This document shows, piece by piece, positions 3,095 to 60,979 of a stretch of DNA of 64,000 bases (the first letter of the stretch is position 1; every line of letters starts with the position of its first letter). A model generated the notes under the pieces. The model was not told the DNA's origin. It searched no databases and saw only the letters and a program-made list of their open reading frames with translations. The stretch is from the NCBI RefSeq assembly GCF_003346815.1, contig NZ_CP031217.1, positions 1,674,001-1,738,000 on the forward strand, in the 5' to 3' direction. The stretch is from Halarcobacter bivalviorum (GTDB lineage Bacteria; Campylobacterota; Campylobacteria; Campylobacterales; Arcobacteraceae). Both the position numbers and the translations under genes were made by a program.

Positions 3095-6000
3095 ATGTTC
3101 TCAATATTTTTTATAGACCGTCCTATTTTTGCAAAAGTTATCTCAATCTTTATTATGATTGTAGGACTTATTGCACTTTATTTATTACCTGTTGCACAGT
3201 TTCCACAAATAACACCACCTACTATACAAGTTAGTGCAACTTTTACAGGTGGAAGTGCACAAGTAGTTGAAAGTTCTGTTACAACTCCTATAGAAGAGCA
3301 GTTAAATGGTATTGAAGGTATGATTTATATGGATTCAACTTCCTCTTCAGATGGAAACTCTACTATAAATTTATACTTTGAATCAGGCTATGATTTAGAT
3401 GTAGCTGCAATTGATGTACAAAATAGAGTTGCTCTTGCTACACCAATTTTACCAGATAGTGTAAAACAAAGGGGAGTTACAACAAAGAAAAAGTCAACTT
3501 CAATGGTTCAAATTCTTACAATAGAATCAAACGATCCAAGCCATGACGCTCTATTTTTATCAAACTTTGCAAGTATTAATATTTCAGAAGAATTAAAAAG
3601 AATTGATGGAGTGGGAGATGTTCAAAACTTAGGAGAAAGAAAATACTCTATGAGAATTTGGATGAATCCTGATAAATTATCAAGTTTAAACCTTGGTATT
3701 AATGAAGTTATTGCCGCAATTAAAGAACAAAATACAGAAGCAGCTTTAGGTTCTATTGGTTCAAGTCCAAATAGCTCTTCAAATAAATTTCAATACACTC
3801 TTACTTCAAAAACAAAACTTGAATCAGCACAAGAGTTTGAAGACATCATAGTAAGACATAATAATGATGGAAGTAAAGTAAGAATTAAAGATATAGCAAG
3901 GGTTGAATTAGGAGCAGAAAACTATAGCTGGTCTGCAAAACTAAACAATAAACCTACTGCATTGTTAGGTATTTATCAATTACCTGGAGCAAATGCTTTA
4001 GATGTAGCAAAACAAGTTGGAGAAAAGATAGAACAACTAAAACAAAGATTTCCTGAAGGCGTAGTAGTAAAACCAACTTATGATACTACAAAATTCGTAG
4101 AGATTTCTATTAAAGAGGTTATTGTTACACTATTTGAAGCTTTACTTCTTGTTTTACTTGTAGTTTACTTCTTCTTACAATCATTTAGAACAACAATTAT
4201 TCCAGCAATTGCTATTCCTGTATCTTTAATAGGTACTTTTGCCCTACTTCTAGCTATGGATTTTTCAATTAATACCTTAACTTTATTTGGTCTAATCTTA
4301 GCAATTGGTATTGTTGTTGATGATGCTATTATTGTAGTTGAAAATGTTGAATCAAACTTAGAAAAAAATCCTGACTTAAGTGTAAAAGAGGCTACAAAAA
4401 CAGCTATGAAAGAGGTTTTTGCACCTGTTATTTCTACAACCTTAGTACTTCTTGCCGTATTTGTTCCTGTAACTTTTATTCCAGGAATTTCAGGAGCTTT
4501 ATATCAACAATTTGCAACAACAATTGCTTTTGCAGTAATTATCTCTTCTATTAATGCACTTACACTTTCACCTGCTCTTTGTGCAACACTTTTAAAAAGA
4601 AAACAAAAAAACTCACAAGAAGATAAAAAAAATATTATCTTTGAGAAATTTGATAATGCCTTAGAGAGTTTTAAAGTAATCTATAAAAAAATCTTAGAAA
4701 AGATTATAAAGTACTGGCAAGTTGCAGCATTTGTATATATTATTTTATTAGGATTAACATATTTTGCTTTTAAAACTTTACCAACTGGATTTATTCCAAA
4801 TGAAGACCAAGGAACACTTGTAGCTTCAGTTGCTTTACAAGCAGGAACAACTTTAAATAAAACAGAAGATACAGCAAATAAAGTAGTTGAATTAATGAAA
4901 GAGACAAAAGGGGTAAAAGATGTTATCTCTGTTTCAGGATTCAATCTAATTAGTGGAGCTTTAGACTCATCTAATGCAACAATATTCTTAGTTTTAGAGG
5001 ATTGGGAAAAAAGAACTACAAAAGAGACTTCTGTTGATTCTATTACAAATATAATAAATAAAAAAGCTAGTGAGCAAATTGAAAATGCTACTATTCAAGT
5101 ATTTAATATGCCTTCAATTCCAGGAATTTCAGCAGTTGGAGGTTTTGAAGTAAAACTTCAAAATCTTCAATCAATGAATATTAAAGAGTTTGAACAAAGA
5201 GCACATGATTTTATACAAAAATTAAATGAAGAAAAATCTATTATGATGGCATATACTAGTTTTAATAGTAACTATCCTCAATACTATATTGATATAAATA
5301 GAGATAAAGTTGCTTCTTTAGAATTAAAACTAAATGATGTTTTCTCTGTACTTCAAACCTACCTTGGTTCTTTATATGTAAATGATTTTAATAAATATGG
5401 AAAAACATATAGAGTTTTTATTCAAGCTGACCAAAACTTTAGAGAAGAAAAGAACTCAATAAATAACTTCTTTGTAAAAAATTCTAAAGGAGATATTGTT
5501 CCTTTAAGTGCTATTGTTGAGATTAAAAGAACAAGTGGAGTTAGTACAATTACTCACTTTAATTCATACCAAAGTATTGCAATAAATGGAGTTCATAATA
5601 TCAAAGATGGCTATAGTTCAGGAGATGCAATTAAAGCAATTGAAAAAGTTGCAAAAGAGACTTTAGGAAGTGAAGTAGGATATGAGTTTGCAGGTATGAG
5701 CTTACAAGAAAAAGAAGCAGGAAATGCAGCAATGTATATCTTCTTATTATCGATTTTAATGGTATTTTTATTCCTTTCAGCACAATATGAATCATGGATG
5801 ATGCCTTTAATGATTATGCTTCCTATTCCAACAGTTATGTTTGGAGCTTTAGGCGCTAATATGATGGCAGGACTTTTAAATAATACTTATACTCAAATAG
5901 GACTTGTACTTCTTATTGGTATGAGTTCAAAAAATGCTATTTTAATTGTAGAGTTTGCAAAAGAGTTAAGAGATAAAGGACAAACTATAGTTGATGCAGC

Positions 6001-6241
6001 AATAAATGCCTCTCTTCTTAGACTTAGAGCTATTTTAATGACTATTTTCTCATTTTTACTTGGTATTTTACCTCTTGTTTTTGCAAGTGGTGCAGGAGCT
6101 GTATCAAGACAATCTTTAGGTACTGCTGTATTTGGAGGGATGATTATGTCTACATTTTTAACTCTACTATTAACCCCTGTACTTTTTGTAGTTTTACAAA
6201 GATTAAGAGAAGCAAGAAAGGAGAAAACAGATGTTCAATAA
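3095..6241 (+). CDS. RND multidrug efflux pump permease (AcrB/CmeB type, HAE1)
   Basis: A 1048-residue inner-membrane proton-driven exporter of the hydrophobe/amphiphile efflux family. It starts MFSIFFIDRPIFAKV, the usual first helix, and carries the paired aspartates of the proton relay in IGIVVDDAIIVVEN (Asp409/Asp410). Two large periplasmic loops and 12 predicted membrane helices fit the family length. It begins nine bases after the adaptor stop with AGGAG upstream. Its end overlaps the channel gene by 11 bases. Substrates cannot be told from sequence; bile salts, dyes and antibiotics are usual for relatives in Campylobacterota. Confidence 0.93.
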   Translation: MFSIFFIDRPIFAKVISIFIMIVGLIALYLLPVAQFPQITPPTIQVSATFTGGSAQVVESSVTTPIEEQLNGIEGMIYMDSTSSSDGNSTINLYFESGYDLDVAAIDVQNRVALATPILPDSVKQRGVTTKKKSTSMVQILTIESNDPSHDALFLSNFASINISEELKRIDGVGDVQNLGERKYSMRIWMNPDKLSSLNLGINEVIAAIKEQNTEAALGSIGSSPNSSSNKFQYTLTSKTKLESAQEFEDIIVRHNNDGSKVRIKDIARVELGAENYSWSAKLNNKPTALLGIYQLPGANALDVAKQVGEKIEQLKQRFPEGVVVKPTYDTTKFVEISIKEVIVTLFEALLLVLLVVYFFLQSFRTTIIPAIAIPVSLIGTFALLLAMDFSINTLTLFGLILAIGIVVDDAIIVVENVESNLEKNPDLSVKEATKTAMKEVFAPVISTTLVLLAVFVPVTFIPGISGALYQQFATTIAFAVIISSINALTLSPALCATLLKRKQKNSQEDKKNIIFEKFDNALESFKVIYKKILEKIIKYWQVAAFVYIILLGLTYFAFKTLPTGFIPNEDQGTLVASVALQAGTTLNKTEDTANKVVELMKETKGVKDVISVSGFNLISGALDSSNATIFLVLEDWEKRTTKETSVDSITNIINKKASEQIENATIQVFNMPSIPGISAVGGFEVKLQNLQSMNIKEFEQRAHDFIQKLNEEKSIMMAYTSFNSNYPQYYIDINRDKVASLELKLNDVFSVLQTYLGSLYVNDFNKYGKTYRVFIQADQNFREEKNSINNFFVKNSKGDIVPLSAIVEIKRTSGVSTITHFNSYQSIAINGVHNIKDGYSSGDAIKAIEKVAKETLGSEVGYEFAGMSLQEKEAGNAAMYIFLLSILMVFLFLSAQYESWMMPLMIMLPIPTVMFGALGANMMAGLLNNTYTQIGLVLLIGMSSKNAILIVEFAKELRDKGQTIVDAAINASLLRLRAILMTIFSFLLGILPLVFASGAGAVSRQSLGTAVFGGMIMSTFLTLLLTPVLFVVLQRLREARKEKTDVQ

Positions 6242-7517
6242 AAAATTCTTAATTACAAGCTTTTGTTGTTTTTTTCTAGTATCAGCAAATGCAAAAGAGT
6301 TATCTTTAGAGGAGCTAATAGATATTGCTTTAAATAATAATACAAATATTCAAATAACTAAAAATCAAAAAGATGTAAGTGAACAAAAACTTAGGCAAGC
6401 TAAAGCTTTATATCTTCCTCAAGTTACTTCTGTAGCAAATACAGGAGAGTATGATATTAAACAAAATGGAATAAAAGAAGATGGTACTGTAAATAGTGTA
6501 ACCCTTAGTGCAAATCAACTTATTTATGATTTCGGTAAAACAACAAGTGCTATTAAAGCTTCAAGTTATAATGTTGAAGCTTCAAGTAATGATGTTACTT
6601 CTACAGTACAAGAGATAGTATTAGCAGTAAAAAAAGCATATTTTGAGATTTTAAATAAATACCAACAAATAATTGTGGCAAAAGAGGCTGTTAAGCTTGA
6701 TGAATTACAACTCTCTCAAGCAGAAGAGTACTTTAAAGCAGGTATTAGAACTCAAATAGATATTACAAATGCCCAACTTCAATTATCAAACTCAAATTTA
6801 AAACTTATTCAAGCTCAATATGATTTAAAAAGAGCAAAAACAAATCTTATCTCTATCTTAGGAAAAAATATAAGTGAAGATTTAAGTGTTCAAGTAGATA
6901 AAGGAAATATTAACTCTCTTGCAAAAAATGCTACTTTAAATTATCAAGATACTAATAATCTAATTGGAATTGCGCTAAAAAATAGAGCTGAAATAAAAAA
7001 ATATGATTCATTGATTAATGCAAATAAACAAAATCTTAAAAATGCAACTTATCAATATTTACCAACTATTGATGTGAGTGCTTCTTATAATGAACAAGAT
7101 TCTGATGATATTACTTCTTTAGATTCAAATCAAACTGCTGTTTTATTAAATCTAAAATGGGATATTTTTACAGGCTTTTCAAGGGATGCAAATAGAAAAA
7201 TTGCCCTTTCAAATCTTAGCTCTTCATATAAACAAAAAGAGCAACAAGAATTAGCAATAATCGAAGCAGTGACAAATGCTCATCTAAATACAAAACAAAG
7301 CTTTGAAACTATAAAGATTAGCTTACTTAGTTTAGATTTAGCTACAAGAAACTTAGATTTAGCACAACAAAGATATAAAGCAGGTTTAAATGATTTACTT
7401 GAATTAAATGATGCTAAATTAGAGTATACACAAGCAAAATCAAACCTTGTAAACACCTATTATGCTCATTTAGTAAATAGTGCAAACTTAGAGTATAGTT
7501 TAGGAATTATAAAATGA
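6231..7517 (+). CDS. TolC-family outer-membrane efflux channel
   Basis: A 428-residue outer-membrane factor with a signal peptide ending near SANA (residue 21) and two long repeated helical regions typical of TolC, each with a run like YFKAGIRTQIDITNAQLQLS and RYKAGLNDLLELNDAKL. It completes the tripartite pump with the adaptor and permease just upstream, with which it overlaps by 11 bases. Its last bases overlap the phospholipase start by four bases (ATGA), so translation of the next gene is probably coupled to it. Confidence 0.9.
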   Translation: MFNKKFLITSFCCFFLVSANAKELSLEELIDIALNNNTNIQITKNQKDVSEQKLRQAKALYLPQVTSVANTGEYDIKQNGIKEDGTVNSVTLSANQLIYDFGKTTSAIKASSYNVEASSNDVTSTVQEIVLAVKKAYFEILNKYQQIIVAKEAVKLDELQLSQAEEYFKAGIRTQIDITNAQLQLSNSNLKLIQAQYDLKRAKTNLISILGKNISEDLSVQVDKGNINSLAKNATLNYQDTNNLIGIALKNRAEIKKYDSLINANKQNLKNATYQYLPTIDVSASYNEQDSDDITSLDSNQTAVLLNLKWDIFTGFSRDANRKIALSNLSSSYKQKEQQELAIIEAVTNAHLNTKQSFETIKISLLSLDLATRNLDLAQQRYKAGLNDLLELNDAKLEYTQAKSNLVNTYYAHLVNSANLEYSLGIIK

Positions 7518-54278: not shown

Positions 54279-54620
54279 TTAGTTCATTTCCAAACTCATT
54301 AAATACATATCCTCTCCATCTATAACTTTTACTTGTGTTGAGTTACATTTGGGACAAGCAAACTCATTTTTTTCAAGAGTTGATTCTTCATCACAGGATA
54401 AACAAGTAATTACAACTTTTTGTCTATTTATTATAAAGTCGGCATTTTCACATACTGTTTTCTCTTTAAATGTATCAAATGCAGTTTGTAATAAGTCTGG
54501 TTCTACTCCTGATAATACTCCTATTTTAACAATAACTTTTGTTACATTTGTTGATTCATTTTGTCTTGCATGCTCTTCACAAGACTCTAAAAGTGATTGA
54601 ACAATTGAATATTCATGCAT
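54279..54620 (-). CDS. hypA: Hydrogenase nickel-insertion protein HypA
   Basis: A 113-residue nickel chaperone with the N-terminal Ni-binding MHE (His2, Glu3) and a zinc site of two CxxC pairs (Cys73/Cys76 and Cys89/Cys92). It passes nickel to the large subunit with HypB. It is the last gene of the hyp operon and overlaps hypX by eight bases. Confidence 0.94.
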   Translation of the reverse strand: MHEYSIVQSLLESCEEHARQNESTNVTKVIVKIGVLSGVEPDLLQTAFDTFKEKTVCENADFIINRQKVVITCLSCDEESTLEKNEFACPKCNSTQVKVIDGEDMYLMSLEMN

Positions 54621-56265
54621 TTGATAACTCCTTTAATCTTTCTAAACTCTCTTTATGCTCTTTTTTATAAATGAACTCATTTCTTAATTTATGAAAGGTA
54701 CTACTCTTATCCCAAAATTCTGGATACATTATTTTTAGTTCTTTCTCTTTACATAATTCTATCTTAGACTCATTTTCAAAAAGAAAATCACTCTTTTTTT
54801 CTATAAAAATTTCAAAACTCTCTTCATCTTCGATTAGGCTTTGACAAAACTTTTCTAAGTTTTGTTCATAGTCCTCTTCTTTATATACCTCATCAAGCAT
54901 TCCTATCTCTTTTGCTCTTTTACTTCCTATAGGAATAGTTTTTGTAAGAATCTCATCAGCTACACTTTTTTCTACTCTTTTATAAAAAGTATATGTATGA
55001 TATTCACTGCCAGTTAATCCCATAGTTTTATAATGAGGATTAAAAACTACGCCCTCTTTTGCAATAGTATAATCACAGCTAAGTCCTAAAAAAACTCCCC
55101 CTGCTCCAGAGTTCTTTGAAAAAGAGGCAACTGTTATAATATCTTCTGCAAAAAGAATTGATTTAACTACATCATTCATTGCATTTATATTACTCCAGCC
55201 ATCTTCTCCTTGTTTTTTACTATCTTCAAGAATATTAAGATGTATTCCATTTGAAAAGAACTCTTCTCCTCCACAAAGAACTAGAACTTTACAATTCTCT
55301 TTTAAAAAATCAATTGCATATTTTAGTCTTATTGCTTGTTCTGAATTCATAGCTCCATTATGAAAATTAAAATATAAGTAAGCAATCTCAGCTTCTCTTT
55401 TTACATATATCTCATAAAAGGTTTCTTCTTTATTTTCTAGGATTAAAGGTATTCTTTGTTCTTTTACACCTTTTAACTTCTCTTTTAAAACATAAGTAGC
55501 AGGTAATTTAAACCTATTCTCTTCTTTTAAATGACTTATCCAAACAGCTCCATCAATTGTTCCAACACAAATAGCTCCATCTCTTTTAGCTATTATCTCT
55601 TTGGGTTTGCCTCTAAAATTACTCTCTTTGTGTACTCCATAAAGAAAACAAGTGATTCCAAAAAACTCCTCTTTTACGCCAGGATAAGAGTCGCTCATAT
55701 TTATTTTTTTGATAATATCTTGAGTTGTATCTTTTTCCCAAACTATTTTTCTATTCTCTTGTGTTAATCTTGGATGTATCTCATTTTTTATTTGTGGTAT
55801 GGGTTTAAACTCTGTGTTTTTTAGATTAATAAGTAACTCTTTTAAAGCTTTTGAAGTAGCATCACAAACTTCATTTCTATAGATTGAAGCTTTACTTGTA
55901 TCTCTCATAAAAAAGTTAGAACTTGCATAAATATCTCCTGCATCTAACTCTTCATTTGCTTTTAATATTACCACACCCCATTGTTTTTTTTCATCATTAA
56001 TAGCATGGTCTAAAGATTGATGACCTCTATCTCCAATAATTCCAGGGTGTAAAATAAAAGTAGAATAGTTTGAAGTTATATCTTCTTTTAAATACTCTTT
56101 TAAAAAGGGACAAAAAATAAGTGAAGGGTTAAACTCTTTTATCTCTTCTATTAAGTTTTCTTGTGAAGATAAACATATACGAACTTCATAGTTTAACTCT
56201 TTTAATTCACAAAATACTCTTTGAGATAAGGAATTAAAAGAGCTAATAAGAAGTAGGATTTTCAT
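54613..56265 (-). CDS. hypX: Hydrogenase maturation protein HypX (CO-ligand synthesis)
   Basis: A 550-residue two-part enzyme: an N-terminal formyltransferase-like region (about 1-270, with HPGIIGDRGHQSLDHAI) and a C-terminal enoyl-CoA hydratase-like region (about 290-520, with CGGEEFFSNGIHLN and NSGAGGVFLGLSCDY). In aerobic hydrogen oxidisers HypX makes the active-site CO from a formyl-tetrahydrofolate one-carbon unit. It lies between hypE (eight-base gap) and hypA, so it is part of the maturation operon. Its presence suggests hydrogenase assembly in the presence of oxygen. Confidence 0.88.
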   Translation of the reverse strand: MKILLLISSFNSLSQRVFCELKELNYEVRICLSSQENLIEEIKEFNPSLIFCPFLKEYLKEDITSNYSTFILHPGIIGDRGHQSLDHAINDEKKQWGVVILKANEELDAGDIYASSNFFMRDTSKASIYRNEVCDATSKALKELLINLKNTEFKPIPQIKNEIHPRLTQENRKIVWEKDTTQDIIKKINMSDSYPGVKEEFFGITCFLYGVHKESNFRGKPKEIIAKRDGAICVGTIDGAVWISHLKEENRFKLPATYVLKEKLKGVKEQRIPLILENKEETFYEIYVKREAEIAYLYFNFHNGAMNSEQAIRLKYAIDFLKENCKVLVLCGGEEFFSNGIHLNILEDSKKQGEDGWSNINAMNDVVKSILFAEDIITVASFSKNSGAGGVFLGLSCDYTIAKEGVVFNPHYKTMGLTGSEYHTYTFYKRVEKSVADEILTKTIPIGSKRAKEIGMLDEVYKEEDYEQNLEKFCQSLIEDEESFEIFIEKKSDFLFENESKIELCKEKELKIMYPEFWDKSSTFHKLRNEFIYKKEHKESLERLKELSNA

Positions 56266-56273
56266 CTAAACTC

Positions 56274-57263
56274 TTAACAAATTCTTGGTAGTAATTCACC
56301 AGTTGGTAACTCTAAAAATCTTTTTGTTCCCCAAGCAGAGTTTAATACAACTTTTCCAAGATGTTCAGCAGATACAGAACCTATAATTGAAGCTGTTTCA
56401 TTTGTCTGTTTTAAAATCTCTAAAGCTTTTTGTGCATCTTCATTTTTAATAGCAAGTACAAATGTTCCTTCATTTGCTAAAGCCATTGCTTCAAAACCAA
56501 GTAATTCACAAATACCAGTTACCTCATCAGATATTGGAATAGAAGCCTCTTCTACTTCGATACAGATATTAGATTGTTTTGCCCACTCATTTAAAACGGC
56601 ACTAACTCCACCTCTTGTAGCATCTCTTAAAGCAGTTATTTTAAGGTCTGCATCAATTAAAGCTTTTACTTGTGGATAAAGTGAAGCACAATCAGATTTT
56701 AGGTTTGTATTCATATCAATACCTTCTCTGCTTGCAAAAATAGTTGCTCCATGTGCTCCTATATCTCTGCTTACTAAGATAGTATCTTCACTTGTAATAT
56801 TGTTTGAACTAATACCTTTATATTGTATTTCTCCAATACCAGTTGTATTTATAAAGATTTTATCTACACTACCTCTTGGTACTACCTTTGTATCACCACT
56901 TACAATAATTGCACCATTTACTTCAAGCTCCTCTTTCATACTCTTTACAATCTTGTCTAAAGTTCTTTTATCAAAACCCTCTTCAATAATAACAGAGCAA
57001 GTTAAATATTTAGGTTTTGCACCCATCATAGCTAAGTCATTACAAGTTCCACAAATGGCTAATTTTCCTATATCTGCTCCATTGAAAAATAGAGGGCTTA
57101 CAGTAAAAGAGTCAGTTGAAAAAGCTAAATTACCATCTTCAATAACTGCTGCATCTTCACTTTTGTCTAAAATATCATTTTTAAAGGCTTTATAAAAAAC
57201 CTTTGAAATAAGTTCATTGTTCTCTTGTCCACCGTTTCCATGGGCTAAAGTTATTGTTTTCAT
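56274..57263 (-). CDS. hypE: Hydrogenase maturation protein HypE
   Basis: A 329-residue PurM-like enzyme that dehydrates thiocarboxamide on its own C-terminal cysteine to make the cyanide ligand. The C-terminus is intact: it ends PRIC with the carrier Cys329. The N-terminal LAHGNGGQENNELISKVF is typical. It follows hypD across a 186-base gap with a nested inverted repeat. Confidence 0.94.
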   Translation of the reverse strand: MKTITLAHGNGGQENNELISKVFYKAFKNDILDKSEDAAVIEDGNLAFSTDSFTVSPLFFNGADIGKLAICGTCNDLAMMGAKPKYLTCSVIIEEGFDKRTLDKIVKSMKEELEVNGAIIVSGDTKVVPRGSVDKIFINTTGIGEIQYKGISSNNITSEDTILVSRDIGAHGATIFASREGIDMNTNLKSDCASLYPQVKALIDADLKITALRDATRGGVSAVLNEWAKQSNICIEVEEASIPISDEVTGICELLGFEAMALANEGTFVLAIKNEDAQKALEILKQTNETASIIGSVSAEHLGKVVLNSAWGTKRFLELPTGELLPRIC

Positions 57264-57305: not shown

Positions 57306-57453
57306 ATAAAAGGATAGTAGATTTTATATTTTATTTCTAGTTCAAGACAGAGCTAAAAATTTAAGTAGAAGTTTACTTCTAGTAAATGACTATTTAAATT
57401 TTTAGATTCAACGATGAAATAATATATAAAGATGAAGTCTAATATCCTTTTAT
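57306..57453. repeat. Nested inverted-repeat element between hypD and hypE
   Basis: Three nested pairs: an outer pair ATAAAAGGATAGTAGA (57306-57321) with 57438-57453, 15 of 16 complementary; a middle pair CTAAAAATTTAA (57353-57364) with 57394-57405, perfect; and an inner hairpin TAGAAGT-TT-ACTTCTA (57366-57381). It begins 43 bases past the hypE start and ends at the hypD stop codon. It could be an RNA processing or attenuation structure, or a remnant of a small inverted-repeat element. Confidence 0.75.
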
Positions 57454-58595
57454 AAGAGATTACCATATTTATAGTATGCCGCACAAGCACCTTCACTGCT
57501 CACCATACAAGAACCAATAGGAGTACTTGGTTTACATGCTGTTCCAAAAATAGTACACTCAGGAGGAGTTGCCATTCCCCTTAAAATATCTCCACAAATA
57601 CAAAGTTTATGGTCTTCTATTTCCCCTATAGGTAAAATATCTTTATAAATATGTTCTGCATCATATGTTAAATATTCATCTCTAAGTTTAAGTCCAGAAT
57701 CTTTGATATTTCCTAAACCTCTCCATTTAAATAAAGAGCTTTTTTTAAAATATTTATTGATTAATTCTTGTGCTTTTATATTTCCCTCATAAGAGACTAA
57801 TCTTTTATACTCTATTTCAAGTTCACATCTATTTTCAATAAATTGTTTAATTATCATTAAGATTGATTGCATTACATCTACTGGCTCAAAACCTGCAACT
57901 ACTACTGGTTTATTATAATCTCTTGGAAACTCTTCATATATTTTACTTCCACTAATAACAGAAACATGAGAAGGTCCTAAAAAAGCATCTATTTGATGGT
58001 TATATGAATCAACATGTTCATCTCTACTATCTATCAACTCTTTCATTACCTCAGGAACTGTCACATGATTTATATGAAAGTATATATTTTTTATATCTTG
58101 TTTTATTACAACATCTAATAAAGCAGCAGTCATAGGTGTAGTTGTCTCAAAACCAATAGCAAAGAAGATAACTTTTTTATTTGGATTTTCATTTGCAATT
58201 TTTATGCAATCCATAGGAGAGTATACAAATCTTACATCAGCACCTTTACTTCTTGCATCTTGCAGACTTCCATTACTTCCAGGTACTTTTATCATATCCC
58301 CTAAAGTTACTAAGATTACATCCTCTTGCATACTTAAAATATATGCATGGTCTATTCTCTCTTTTGGCATAATACAAACAGGACATCCAGGACCATGTAT
58401 AAAGTTTATGTTTGAAGGTAATAATTGAGGTATTCCATACTTCATAATAGTATGAGTATGTCCACCACAAACCTCCATAATATTTATTGGTTTTTCAAGT
58501 TTTTTAGCATCTTCTTCAATGATTTTTTTAAAAGCTTTTATTGTCTCAGGGTCTCTAAACCCATCATATAAATCCTTTAGCTTTAATTGACTCAT
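57450..58595 (-). CDS. hypD: Hydrogenase maturation protein HypD
   Basis: A 381-residue iron-sulfur scaffold for assembly of Fe(CN)2CO with HypC. Conserved cysteines are all present: CGGHTHTIMKYGI (early), GPGCPVCIMP, and a C-terminal CICGDILRGMATPPEC...C...C...C set. The start at 58595, one base after the hypC stop, is chosen because GAGG precedes it in hypC; the frame could extend nine codons. Confidence 0.93.
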   Translation of the reverse strand: MSQLKLKDLYDGFRDPETIKAFKKIIEEDAKKLEKPINIMEVCGGHTHTIMKYGIPQLLPSNINFIHGPGCPVCIMPKERIDHAYILSMQEDVILVTLGDMIKVPGSNGSLQDARSKGADVRFVYSPMDCIKIANENPNKKVIFFAIGFETTTPMTAALLDVVIKQDIKNIYFHINHVTVPEVMKELIDSRDEHVDSYNHQIDAFLGPSHVSVISGSKIYEEFPRDYNKPVVVAGFEPVDVMQSILMIIKQFIENRCELEIEYKRLVSYEGNIKAQELINKYFKKSSLFKWRGLGNIKDSGLKLRDEYLTYDAEHIYKDILPIGEIEDHKLCICGDILRGMATPPECTIFGTACKPSTPIGSCMVSSEGACAAYYKYGNLL

Positions 58596-58596
58596 T

Positions 58597-58881
58597 TTAG
58601 CCTCTATTTGCGCAAGCATCATCTTCTAGTATAGCTTGCCTACGCTCCTCTTCTTCCATTTTTTCTATTATTTCTTTATAAACTTCCAAAGAGGCTAAAG
58701 CATCCTCTTCATCTATTTTATTCATTGCAAAACCAATATGGATTAATACATAATCTCCAACAACAACTGGTTGATCTATTAAGTCTAAAGAAGCTTTTCT
58801 TTCAACTCCCATAGTATCTACAGTTGCAATATTATTCTCCTCATCTATATGAGTTACTTTTGAAGGGATTGATAAACACAC
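58597..58881 (-). CDS. hypC: Hydrogenase assembly chaperone HypC
   Basis: A 94-residue chaperone beginning MCLSIPSKV with essential Cys2. The start codon is GTG at 58881, preceded by AAGGAG. The first half is the HypC barrel; the last ~35 residues are an acidic helix. It binds HypD and the hydrogenase large-subunit precursor. Confidence 0.93.
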   Translation of the reverse strand: MCLSIPSKVTHIDEENNIATVDTMGVERKASLDLIDQPVVVGDYVLIHIGFAMNKIDEEDALASLEVYKEIIEKMEEEERRQAILEDDACANRG

Positions 58882-59044: not shown

Positions 59045-59833
59045 TTATCTCATCTTTCTTTTAAAATTAATCCACTCAACAACAGCTTTTAAACTATCTT
59101 CATCTTTTGTAGAAACTTCTAAAATATCAACGCTTGGTTTTAATTTTCTTGCACACTCTTTCTCTTTTTCTAAATCATATTCAAAATATGGAAGTAAGTC
59201 TACTTTTGTAAACAGAATTAAATCAGCAGTTCTAAACATTACTGGATACTTAGCAATTTTATCTTCCCCTTCTGGTACAGATACTAAAACTATATTTAAA
59301 TGAGTTCCCACATCATAAGAAGCTGGACAAACTAAGTTACCAACATTTTCTACAAAACATACATCTAAGTCCTCTAAAGGCATATCATGTAAACCTTTAT
59401 GAACCATAAAGGCATCTAAGTGACAAGCACTTCCTGTTTGAATTTGAACAGCTTTAATTCCCTTTGCTTTTAATCTATCAGCATCTTTATTTGTCTCTAA
59501 ATCCCCTTCAACTACACCAAATTTAAAATCAACTAAAGGTGCTAAATGCTCTAGTAGAGTTGTTTTTCCACTTCCTGGGCTTGACATAAGATTGATACCT
59601 AAAACATTTTGTTTATCAAAATGTGCTCTATTATGAGCAGCTTCATGGTCATTTTTATCTAAAATCTTTTTTATAACTGCAACTGTTTTACTATCATTTA
59701 ATTGTGGGTTATGATGAAGTGTTTCATGAGCAGCTTGATGAGAAGCTGAATCAGAATGACTATGGTCATGAGAGTGTTCATGACTATGATGATGGTGATG
59801 GTCTGTGATGCTACAACCGCAATCTTTACACAT
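59045..59833 (-). CDS. hypB: Hydrogenase nickel-incorporation GTPase HypB
   Basis: A 262-residue GTPase. N-terminal CXXCGC (MCKDCGCS) and a histidine-rich nickel-storage stretch (about residues 12-27) precede the G domain with P-loop SSPGSGKTT (84-92) and later switch motifs. The start at 59833 is clear from the family N-terminus and AAGGAA upstream; the frame extends 52 codons further without meaning. It is the first gene of the hyp operon, divergent from the transposase-like gene. Confidence 0.94.
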   Translation of the reverse strand: MCKDCGCSITDHHHHHSHEHSHDHSHSDSASHQAAHETLHHNPQLNDSKTVAVIKKILDKNDHEAAHNRAHFDKQNVLGINLMSSPGSGKTTLLEHLAPLVDFKFGVVEGDLETNKDADRLKAKGIKAVQIQTGSACHLDAFMVHKGLHDMPLEDLDVCFVENVGNLVCPASYDVGTHLNIVLVSVPEGEDKIAKYPVMFRTADLILFTKVDLLPYFEYDLEKEKECARKLKPSVDILEVSTKDEDSLKAVVEWINFKRKMR

Positions 59834-59846
59834 ATTTTTTCCTTTT

Positions 59847-59860
59847 AATGAATATTCATT
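59847..59860. promoter_or_regulatory. 14-bp palindrome in the hypB promoter
   Basis: AATGAATATTCATT, a perfect palindrome, lies between a TATATA -10-like sequence (about 59864-59872 on the minus strand, in TGCTATATATA) and the hypB ribosome-binding site. A regulator binding here would affect the hyp operon and possibly the divergent gene. Confidence 0.45.
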
Positions 59861-59953
59861 TATATATAGCAGTTTATTTACAGAAAACTGAAATTTAGCT
59901 AATATCATCCTAGACTTATGTACTTTTAGGACAAAAATAGTAGAATTGTTACC

Positions 59954-60604
59954 ATGATAAAAAGATGTCCCTTTTGCAACAACAAACATTTATATGACTT
60001 ACAAGACAATTACAAAAAATGCTCCTTTTGTAAAAGAAAGTTTTCTGTAAAAAAATTCGAAACAGATATTAATGTAATAGAGTTTTTTTGTAATCAAGTT
60101 AGTGCAAACAAATGTGCAAAACTTTTAAATGTAAATTACCGTACAATCAAAAATAGATATGACCTTTTTAGAAAACTTATTGCAAACTATCTAGAAGATG
60201 CTTATCATTCTTCAATCAAAGATAATAGTTCATATGAAGAGTTTTATTATTTTACAGATAAACAGAAAAAAATCAAAAAAAAGTCTTTATACAATGCAAT
60301 AAATATTATAGGTTTTTATTCAAATGAAAAAATCTATACTCTACTTATGCCAAAACTTCCAGTTTATAACAATGAAGAAGACAACAAAACTTTTGAAAAC
60401 TTTTTAAGATGGCATAAAGTTTTTTCAAAAGATTCATACTCTACTCCTTTAAATATTTTTTGGAAATATTTAGAAAAGAATCTTCGTAAGTATAAAGGAA
60501 TAGATGAAGAAAACTTCTTCTTCTATTTAAAAGAGTGTGAATTCAAATTTAATTATCTACAAAATGAGCAAATAAAAATCCTAAAAAATCTATACTTTAA
60601 TTAG
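59954..60604 (+). CDS. Zinc-ribbon/HTH protein related to IS1595-family transposases, catalytic core degraded
   Basis: A 216-residue protein. An N-terminal zinc ribbon (Cys5/Cys8 and Cys23/Cys26), a helix-turn-helix (about 40-75, SANKCAKLLNVNYRTIKNRY), a shrunken middle and a C-terminus LNIFWKYLEKNLRKYKGID then FFFYLKECEFKFN that match the end of ISXO2/IS1595 transposases. The expected DDE acids and GG-rich core are not present: the first position reads YEEFYYF and the second Asp region is missing. No terminal inverted repeats were found. It is divergent from hypB, so it may be a domesticated DNA-binding regulator. Confidence 0.65.
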   Translation: MIKRCPFCNNKHLYDLQDNYKKCSFCKRKFSVKKFETDINVIEFFCNQVSANKCAKLLNVNYRTIKNRYDLFRKLIANYLEDAYHSSIKDNSSYEEFYYFTDKQKKIKKKSLYNAINIIGFYSNEKIYTLLMPKLPVYNNEEDNKTFENFLRWHKVFSKDSYSTPLNIFWKYLEKNLRKYKGIDEENFFFYLKECEFKFNYLQNEQIKILKNLYFN

Positions 60605-60679
60605 TACACTTAATTTCCACTCTAAACAAAGTATAATCCTTTTACAATATAATTTCATAAAAAGTTGAGGAAAAATTAG

Positions 60680-60979
60680 ATGCTTAGTAATGCTTTAGGA
60701 CGATTTAGAGTAATTTCTGCTATTGAAGGTTTATCATTTTTAATTTTAGTATTTATAGCTATGCCAATAAAATATATTGGTGGAGAACCATCATTAGTTA
60801 AAATTGTAGGAATGGCTCACGGAGTTTTATTTATTATTTTTATGATTTCTCTTTTAGAAGCAAAAATTAAAGAAGAGTGGGAAAATGGATTTATTTTACA
60901 ACTATTTGTTTTATCTTTAATTCCTTTTGGAGCTTTTATTATTGAAAGAAGAGTAAAGCCTCTTAAAATCAATAGTTAA
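60680..60979 (+). CDS. DUF3817 small membrane protein
   Basis: A 99-residue protein with three hydrophobic segments and the family plan FRVISAIEGLSFLILVFIAM and MPIKYIGGEPSLVKIVGMAH, then GVLFIIFMISLLEA. The function is unknown; relatives sit in diverse contexts. TGAGG lies before the start, and it is closed by a good terminator. Confidence 0.88.
   Translation: MLSNALGRFRVISAIEGLSFLILVFIAMPIKYIGGEPSLVKIVGMAHGVLFIIFMISLLEAKIKEEWENGFILQLFVLSLIPFGAFIIERRVKPLKINS

Follow-up and report, generated by a model that had tools for sequence, protein, structure and literature searches.

The DNA analysed here, called the window throughout, is a stretch of 64,000 nucleotides from Halarcobacter bivalviorum. 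It carries a hyp operon, hypBCDE-A with a HypX-like gene in it, and facing hypB on the opposite strand a gene whose only recognisable family is that of transposases (Table 1). The start codons of hypB and of this divergent gene are 120 bp apart, and the gene is present in one copy in the 2.68-Mb genome. It is followed by a gene for a DUF3817 protein of 99 amino acids (window 60680-60979), an adjacency conserved in most Halarcobacter genomes. The first-pass annotation of the locus, made from the letters alone, had read the gene as a dead IS1595-type transposase recruited as a regulator at hyp, with an intact frame, a divergent position with respect to the hyp operon and a palindrome in the shared promoter. 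The intact frame and the divergent arrangement were confirmed.

Table 1. Genes and sequence elements at the hyp locus, in window coordinates
Feature	Coordinates	Strand	Basis
Transposase-like ORF, predicted nickel/hydrogenase regulator	59954..60604	+	ATG start, 216 aa, no internal stops
Zinc ribbon CPFC...CSFC, C5/C8/C23/C26	59966..60031	+	Cys conservation and AlphaFold2
Helix-turn-helix, approximately residues 39-75	60068..60178	+	profile match to intact IS1595 helix-turn-helix and predicted helices
Degenerate DDE/RNase-H-like region	60236..60598	+	aligned to intact IS1595 transposases and to basal members of the family
18-bp box CTTATGTACTTTTAGGAC	59915..59932	+	conserved in most homolog upstream regions
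Perfect palindrome AATGAATATTCATT, hypB promoter region	59847..59860	.	probable TetR-type operator; genome-wide recurrence
hypB, divergent neighbour	59045..59833	-	TIGR00073, 276.8 bits
hypC	58597..58881	-	ORF and conserved synteny
hypD	57450..58622	-	ORF and conserved synteny
hypE	56274..57263	-	ORF and conserved synteny
HypX-like gene (formyltransferase/enoyl-CoA hydratase-like), in hyp operon	54613..56265	-	ORF; sequence pattern, not profile
hypA	54279..54620	-	ORF and conserved synteny

With respect to its origin, the resemblance of the window protein to IS1595 transposases is real but weak, as judged from profile comparisons. The NCBIfam profile for IS1595 (NF033547) gives 27.1 bits (E 3.3e-6), which is below its cut-off of 75, the best stretch being residues 166-201 against profile positions 178-214. 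Pfam Zn_ribbon_IS1595 matches the window protein at E 0.089 and an ortholog at 1.4e-4, and the Pfam domain scores of the window protein all lie under the gathering score. When a profile of the family was compared by hhalign with intact IS1595 transposases from Arcobacteraceae, it aligned with 93.8% probability (E 1.8e-7) over a span comprising the zinc ribbon and the helix-turn-helix. The claim that the ends of the protein match this transposase type is upheld by these comparisons. Common to the window protein and the IS1595 transposases (NF033547, PF12762, PF12760) are the zinc ribbon, the helix-turn-helix and the tail FW..LK....KG....YLKE.EF.FN, which appears in conserved form as FWKYLE...YLKECEFKFN, and the length is about that of the short IS1595 transposases. 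The four ribbon cysteines are retained in 95-96 of 96 aligned homologs, and F45, T64 and R73 of the helix-turn-helix region in 94-96 of them. AlphaFold2 models of six sequences are confident for the zinc ribbon and the helix-turn-helix only (pLDDT 85-93 for residues 1-40 of the window protein; helices at 32-46, 51-58 and 62-89 in the N-terminal half), with low confidence for the DDE-like region, and a Foldseek search with the predicted structures returned no significant match.

Unlike IS1595 transposases, the window protein has an altered active site and is encoded by a single-copy gene that has no terminal repeats, is inherited vertically at hyp or nickel genes and is linked to an operator-like box recurring in the genome. 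By alignment, the positions of the first Asp, the Asn and the Lys are taken by E95, T164 and E174, and the second catalytic Asp was not recognisable when aligned with intact IS1595 transposases, in agreement with the reported loss of the catalytic acids. Position 95 is D in 29 and position 164 is N in 25 of the 96 homologs. Since basal homologs in other families keep both D95 and N164, loss of the active site seems to have proceeded in steps. These same two residues might be taken to indicate a domesticated transposase that has kept nuclease or recombinase activity at a site of the host, but the window clade has replaced all three alignable catalytic residues and no rearrangement substrate was seen, and we hold retained catalysis to be very improbable. 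As had been stated before, terminal repeats are missing: no inverted repeats bracket the gene in the scanned region 59600-60900. Where the box was compared with terminal repeats, the region shared by intact IS copies reached past the DNA compared.

The distribution of the gene is that of an old and stable resident. Orthologs were found in 15 of 16 genomes of the same genus. Within the Arcobacteraceae, 76 of 104 genomes gave some match and 73 a full-length homolog, with G052, G053 and G087 showing weak partial or diverged matches only, and across the Campylobacterales 195 of 398 genomes match at E<=1e-6, approximately 174 of them strongly (leaving out matches weaker than ~1e-17). Nearly all genomes have one copy, with an intact frame of ~206-226 amino acids. 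Selection on the frame, which the first-pass annotation had proposed to measure, is purifying, dN/dS being 0.03-0.10 in 15 of 17 computable close pairs and 0.20-0.26 in the other two. The gene is not a young insertion. The sole homolog with an in-frame stop (L049 6223-6747, TAG after 174 codons) is either a pseudogene or the product of a sequencing error. Four genomes carry a second paralog, 38-40% identical (L098, L100, L101, L102).

These data also bear on the simplest explanation, an ordinary transposase decaying beside hyp by chance. Its IS1595 homology, the missing catalytic residues and the in-frame stop of the one family member mentioned above are what such a remnant might display. However, the gene occurs order-wide at a conserved position, practically always as a single copy, under purifying selection and without terminal repeats, and the signs of mobility, namely multiple copies, sporadic occurrence and variable sites, were not seen. 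Two observations named beforehand as fatal to a regulatory role were looked for and not found, namely intact multicopy relatives with catalytic acids and sporadic frameshifted copies (one in-frame stop among 76 sequences). A decaying insertion sequence was thus rejected; the conservation data refute it, and we give it next to no credence.

The neighbourhood of the gene is as conserved as its frame. At most of the family loci examined it is divergent from hypB, either directly or with genes in between, and at nearly all of them it lies at hyp or nickel-transport genes. Most of the intervening genes, and of the divergent partners at sites away from hyp, are concerned with nickel: a DUF4198-CbiM-NikL-CbiQ-ATPase ECF operon, HupE/UreJ, NicO-like permeases or a His-rich NifX-like protein, with a chemoreceptor at a few other loci. 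The His-rich protein (130 amino acids, NifX/Nitro_FeMo-Co-like, with a weak match to PF02579) is encoded between hypB and the gene at L063, L064, L067, L084 and L087, and is possibly a nickel-handling protein. Some Halarcobacter genomes (L041-L044, L046, L050) have at this place a gene for a membrane protein of ~370 amino acids, which reads towards the transposase-like gene and is likely co-transcribed with it. The second paralogs are each divergent from a nickel ECF operon and have their own variant of the box. At 20 loci from other Campylobacterales families, most have hypB, or NicO/HupE/ECF plus hyp genes, on one side, and many have hypF convergent on the opposite side. The expectation that the gene would recur at the same place in other hyp loci of Campylobacterota was therefore borne out, at hyp or nickel genes and within the Campylobacterales. 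Gene and hypB also co-occur in the 104 family genomes (both 71, gene only 2, hypB only 11, neither 20; p 1e-11), an association that synteny shared for other reasons could inflate; some of the 11 hypB-only genomes are assemblies with hypB at a contig edge.

Comparison of the homolog upstream regions brought out an element that the first-pass annotation had missed and that is more informative than the palindrome: a common 18-bp box with the consensus CTTATRTAYTTTTAGRAC. In the window, the box overlaps the -35 region of the gene itself (TAGAAT at 59941-59946 being the putative -10 element) and precedes the start of hypB by 81 bp. Matches to the box with no more than one mismatch number only four in the own genome, and every one of them is upstream of a nickel or NiFe gene. 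The first lies between the transposase-like gene and hypB. The second precedes nikA, in a NikABCDE-type operon, by 62 bp (NikA scoring 589.7 bits against a profile cut-off of 393), the third is in front of a DUF4198 gene with a NikL-like gene after it, and the fourth is 171 bp ahead of the gene for a [NiFe] hydrogenase small subunit. Eight sites with two mismatches were inspected in this genome, and all fall in unrelated coding regions. When three mismatches are allowed, the pattern is about as frequent as its reversed control (53/49 vs 48/45), hence the signal lies in the near-perfect sites.

At the level of the family, the box follows the gene. The 73 genomes with the gene contain 169 boxes at no more than one mismatch as compared to 35 control sites, an approximately five-fold enrichment, while the 29 genomes without it contain 6 boxes and 5 control sites, which is background. 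G012 and G039 were left out of this gene-less set, as hypB is near a contig edge in both and the gene has possibly been lost to assembly. Boxes are missing from nine genomes that have hypB but lack the gene. In a few others (e.g., G021, G022, G043, G061) the gene is present without a box at this stringency, in part because the consensus drifts between clades. Forty sites away from the gene were sampled by match quality and irrespective of annotation, and 37 of them precede nickel transporter or hydrogenase genes: 24 DUF4198-type nickel genes (those beyond the tested ones being assigned by sequence likeness), 4 nikA and 9 hydrogenase small subunits. Of the other three sites, two are in front of further uptake genes, for a TonB receptor and a periplasmic binding protein, and one falls inside a coding gene.

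Orientation and distance of the box are constant for each type of target. At transporter genes it is reversed and ~42-76 bp before the start (mostly 58-76 bp for nikA and DUF4198/NikK), at hypB it is likewise reversed and 80-99 bp before the start, and at the hydrogenase small-subunit operon it is forward and 125-196 bp upstream. Where hypB has moved more than 500 bp away from the gene (35 loci), 18 hypB genes keep a box 80-99 bp before their start in the same orientation, compared with 1.6% of random 200-bp windows that contain one; several of the separated hypB genes without a box follow closely behind an upstream gene and have no promoter of their own. The sequence of the box also varies with the protein. 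D95-type proteins mostly go with TTTTGG boxes and E95-type proteins with TTTTAG or TTTTTG, a division that also separates two paralogs of one genome (L098 vs L055, G085). This covariation is supportive of recognition, not proof of it, the species being related.

The palindrome in the shared promoter is real as well, but it is probably not a site of the window protein, which is where the earlier reading of it fails. The own genome has two exact copies of AATGAATATTCATT and five with one mismatch. Three of these, the second exact copy and two with one mismatch, are in the hydrogenase cluster (genome positions 1749073, 1755167 and 1758287), two of them at small-subunit genes and one ~60 bp ahead of a TetR-family gene (genome ~1757637-1758227; L167 10638-11228), and because the sites recur at these places the palindrome is better read as a TetR-type operator. 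It is absent at nikA and at the DUF4198 operon of this genome, it differs in sequence from the box common to those two, and its half-site spacing varies within the genus. A role as the operator of the transposase-like protein is thus unsupported. The palindrome is probably the operator of a separate TetR-type regulator that would add a further level of control to the hyp and hydrogenase genes. Such a regulator would resemble the window protein in acting on hyp and hydrogenase promoters, yet it belongs to another protein family and uses another DNA element.

The presence of a TetR-type regulator in the hydrogenase cluster raises the question whether the box, too, belongs to another protein, with the transposase-derived gene being a passive member of the regulon, for instance a nucleoid or maturation accessory; as with the other targets, the promoter of the gene does contain a box. 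We consider this rather improbable, since box enrichment is confined to genomes with the gene and is missing from the nine hypB genomes that lack it, the box covaries with protein clade and paralog, it is the palindrome and not the box that sits upstream of the TetR gene, and NikR is absent. The indirect evidence (co-distribution, a box in the own promoter, box-less hypB genomes and covariation) rather suggests that the window protein reads the box. What one would look for in a regulator made from a domesticated transposase, namely purifying selection and a recurrent site at coherent genes that is co-distributed with the protein, is present here.

We therefore consider it quite probable, on the grounds of comparative sequence evidence, that the gene encodes a transposase domesticated in the distant past, now an autoregulated transcription factor in charge of a nickel/[NiFe]-hydrogenase regulon. 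Conservation, purifying selection, synteny and the co-distributed box lend strong support to the core of the first-pass proposal, a dead transposase recruited as a regulator at hyp, but the restriction to hyp does not stand, as the box sites predict a regulon that includes nickel uptake and [NiFe] hydrogenase as well. Such a regulator would have derived from an IS1595-family transposase early in the history of the Campylobacterales, and its zinc ribbon and helix-turn-helix, formerly used on transposon ends, would now recognise the asymmetric 18-bp box. It would tie the import of nickel to its HypB-dependent insertion and to the synthesis of hydrogenase, a task that NikR performs elsewhere, the signal being nickel or the demand for hydrogenase. 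Direct sensing of nickel by the window protein is not evident, because there is no near-invariant His or Cys beyond the ribbon among the 96 homologs.

As to the direction of control, binding to the box over its own -35 element would repress the gene itself, and boxes upstream of the hypB, nikA, DUF4198 and hydrogenase starts point to activation of nik, hyp and hup. We lean moderately towards the activator role, which is read from the position of the box relative to apparent promoters; simple scans for -35/-10 elements are of no help in DNA this rich in AT. The regulator could instead be a repressor that shuts off nik, hyp and hup when nickel is replete, a variant of the same proposal whose probability overlaps with it. 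Box-to-ATG distances alone leave the position of the promoter unfixed, the overlap with the own -35 element is what a repressor would show, and NikR, the functional analogue, is mainly a repressor of nickel uptake. However, at nikA and hypB the box is upstream of the apparent -35/-10 elements and not over them, and the products of hydrogenase and maturation genes would normally be needed when nickel is at hand, so that a repressor acting on all of them in response to nickel would work against the need. Repression of the targets appears to us the less probable reading, and activation is preferred.

In this context, the distribution of NikR is of interest. No NikR_C domain (PF08753) was found in any of the 104 Arcobacteraceae genomes, and the window protein itself has no Pfam NikR match. 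In the order outside family f20, 56 genomes have NikR, and just 1 of them has a strong homolog of the gene as well (a hand count over related and thus less independent genomes). The f20 genomes have both, with the NikR gene immediately downstream of the transposase-like gene and convergent with it (L294, L295), hence the gene is no simple NikR replacement there. Both proteins are known or predicted to control nickel uptake and NiFe enzymes, but NikR has a ribbon-helix-helix/ACT-like architecture with its own nickel site and no sequence relation to the window protein, whose box is asymmetric and in which no dedicated nickel site is apparent. The more far-reaching scenario, for which we see slightly better than even chances, is that a single domestication of an IS1595 transposase, near the base of the Campylobacterales, gave rise to a master regulator of nickel uptake and [NiFe] hydrogenase, which took over the role of NikR in several families and works beside it in another. 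A parallel among other domesticated-transposase regulators is, for example, TldR of bacteria, a nuclease-dead TnpB-like transcription factor that is likewise a catalytically dead mobile-element protein recruited for regulation. TldR is RNA-guided and derived from TnpB, whereas the window protein stems from a DDE transposase, has its own helix-turn-helix and is predicted to control a metal/hydrogenase regulon.

We found no description of the gene in the literature, in a search whose scope ended short of preprints and most subscription papers; a preprint may already name an A. butzleri hydrogenase regulator 'HydR', and an earlier description of the gene is possible. The gene is easily overlooked, given that transposase is all that its sequence readily suggests. 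A study of the Sulfurospirillum multivorans hydrogenases states that the regulation of hydrogenases in these bacteria is almost unknown, and NikR is the only regulatory protein it names (PMC5357620). In the paper on the A. butzleri genome, neither IS elements nor an obvious system for nickel uptake are reported (PMC2147049). The regulator, its 18-bp site and its list of targets are specific proposals for many species. If they are right, they provide an ancient bacterial case of a DDE transposase turned transcription factor, and they would explain how nickel supply and hydrogenase are coordinated in hydrogen-using bacteria without NikR.

There is also a second degenerate IS1595-like family, which lacks the zinc ribbon (L109 6019-6573, L110 ~5920-6519, L111 5920-6552, L112 ~6018-6653) and aligns by hhalign with the family of the window gene at 98% (E 3.7e-14). 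At L109 its neighbours are a TonB receptor, ArsR, a heavy-metal ATPase and RND-type genes, and at L111 it is located at the end of a TonB/ExbBD-like operon. This second family is possibly another domestication, in that case as a regulator of metal uptake.
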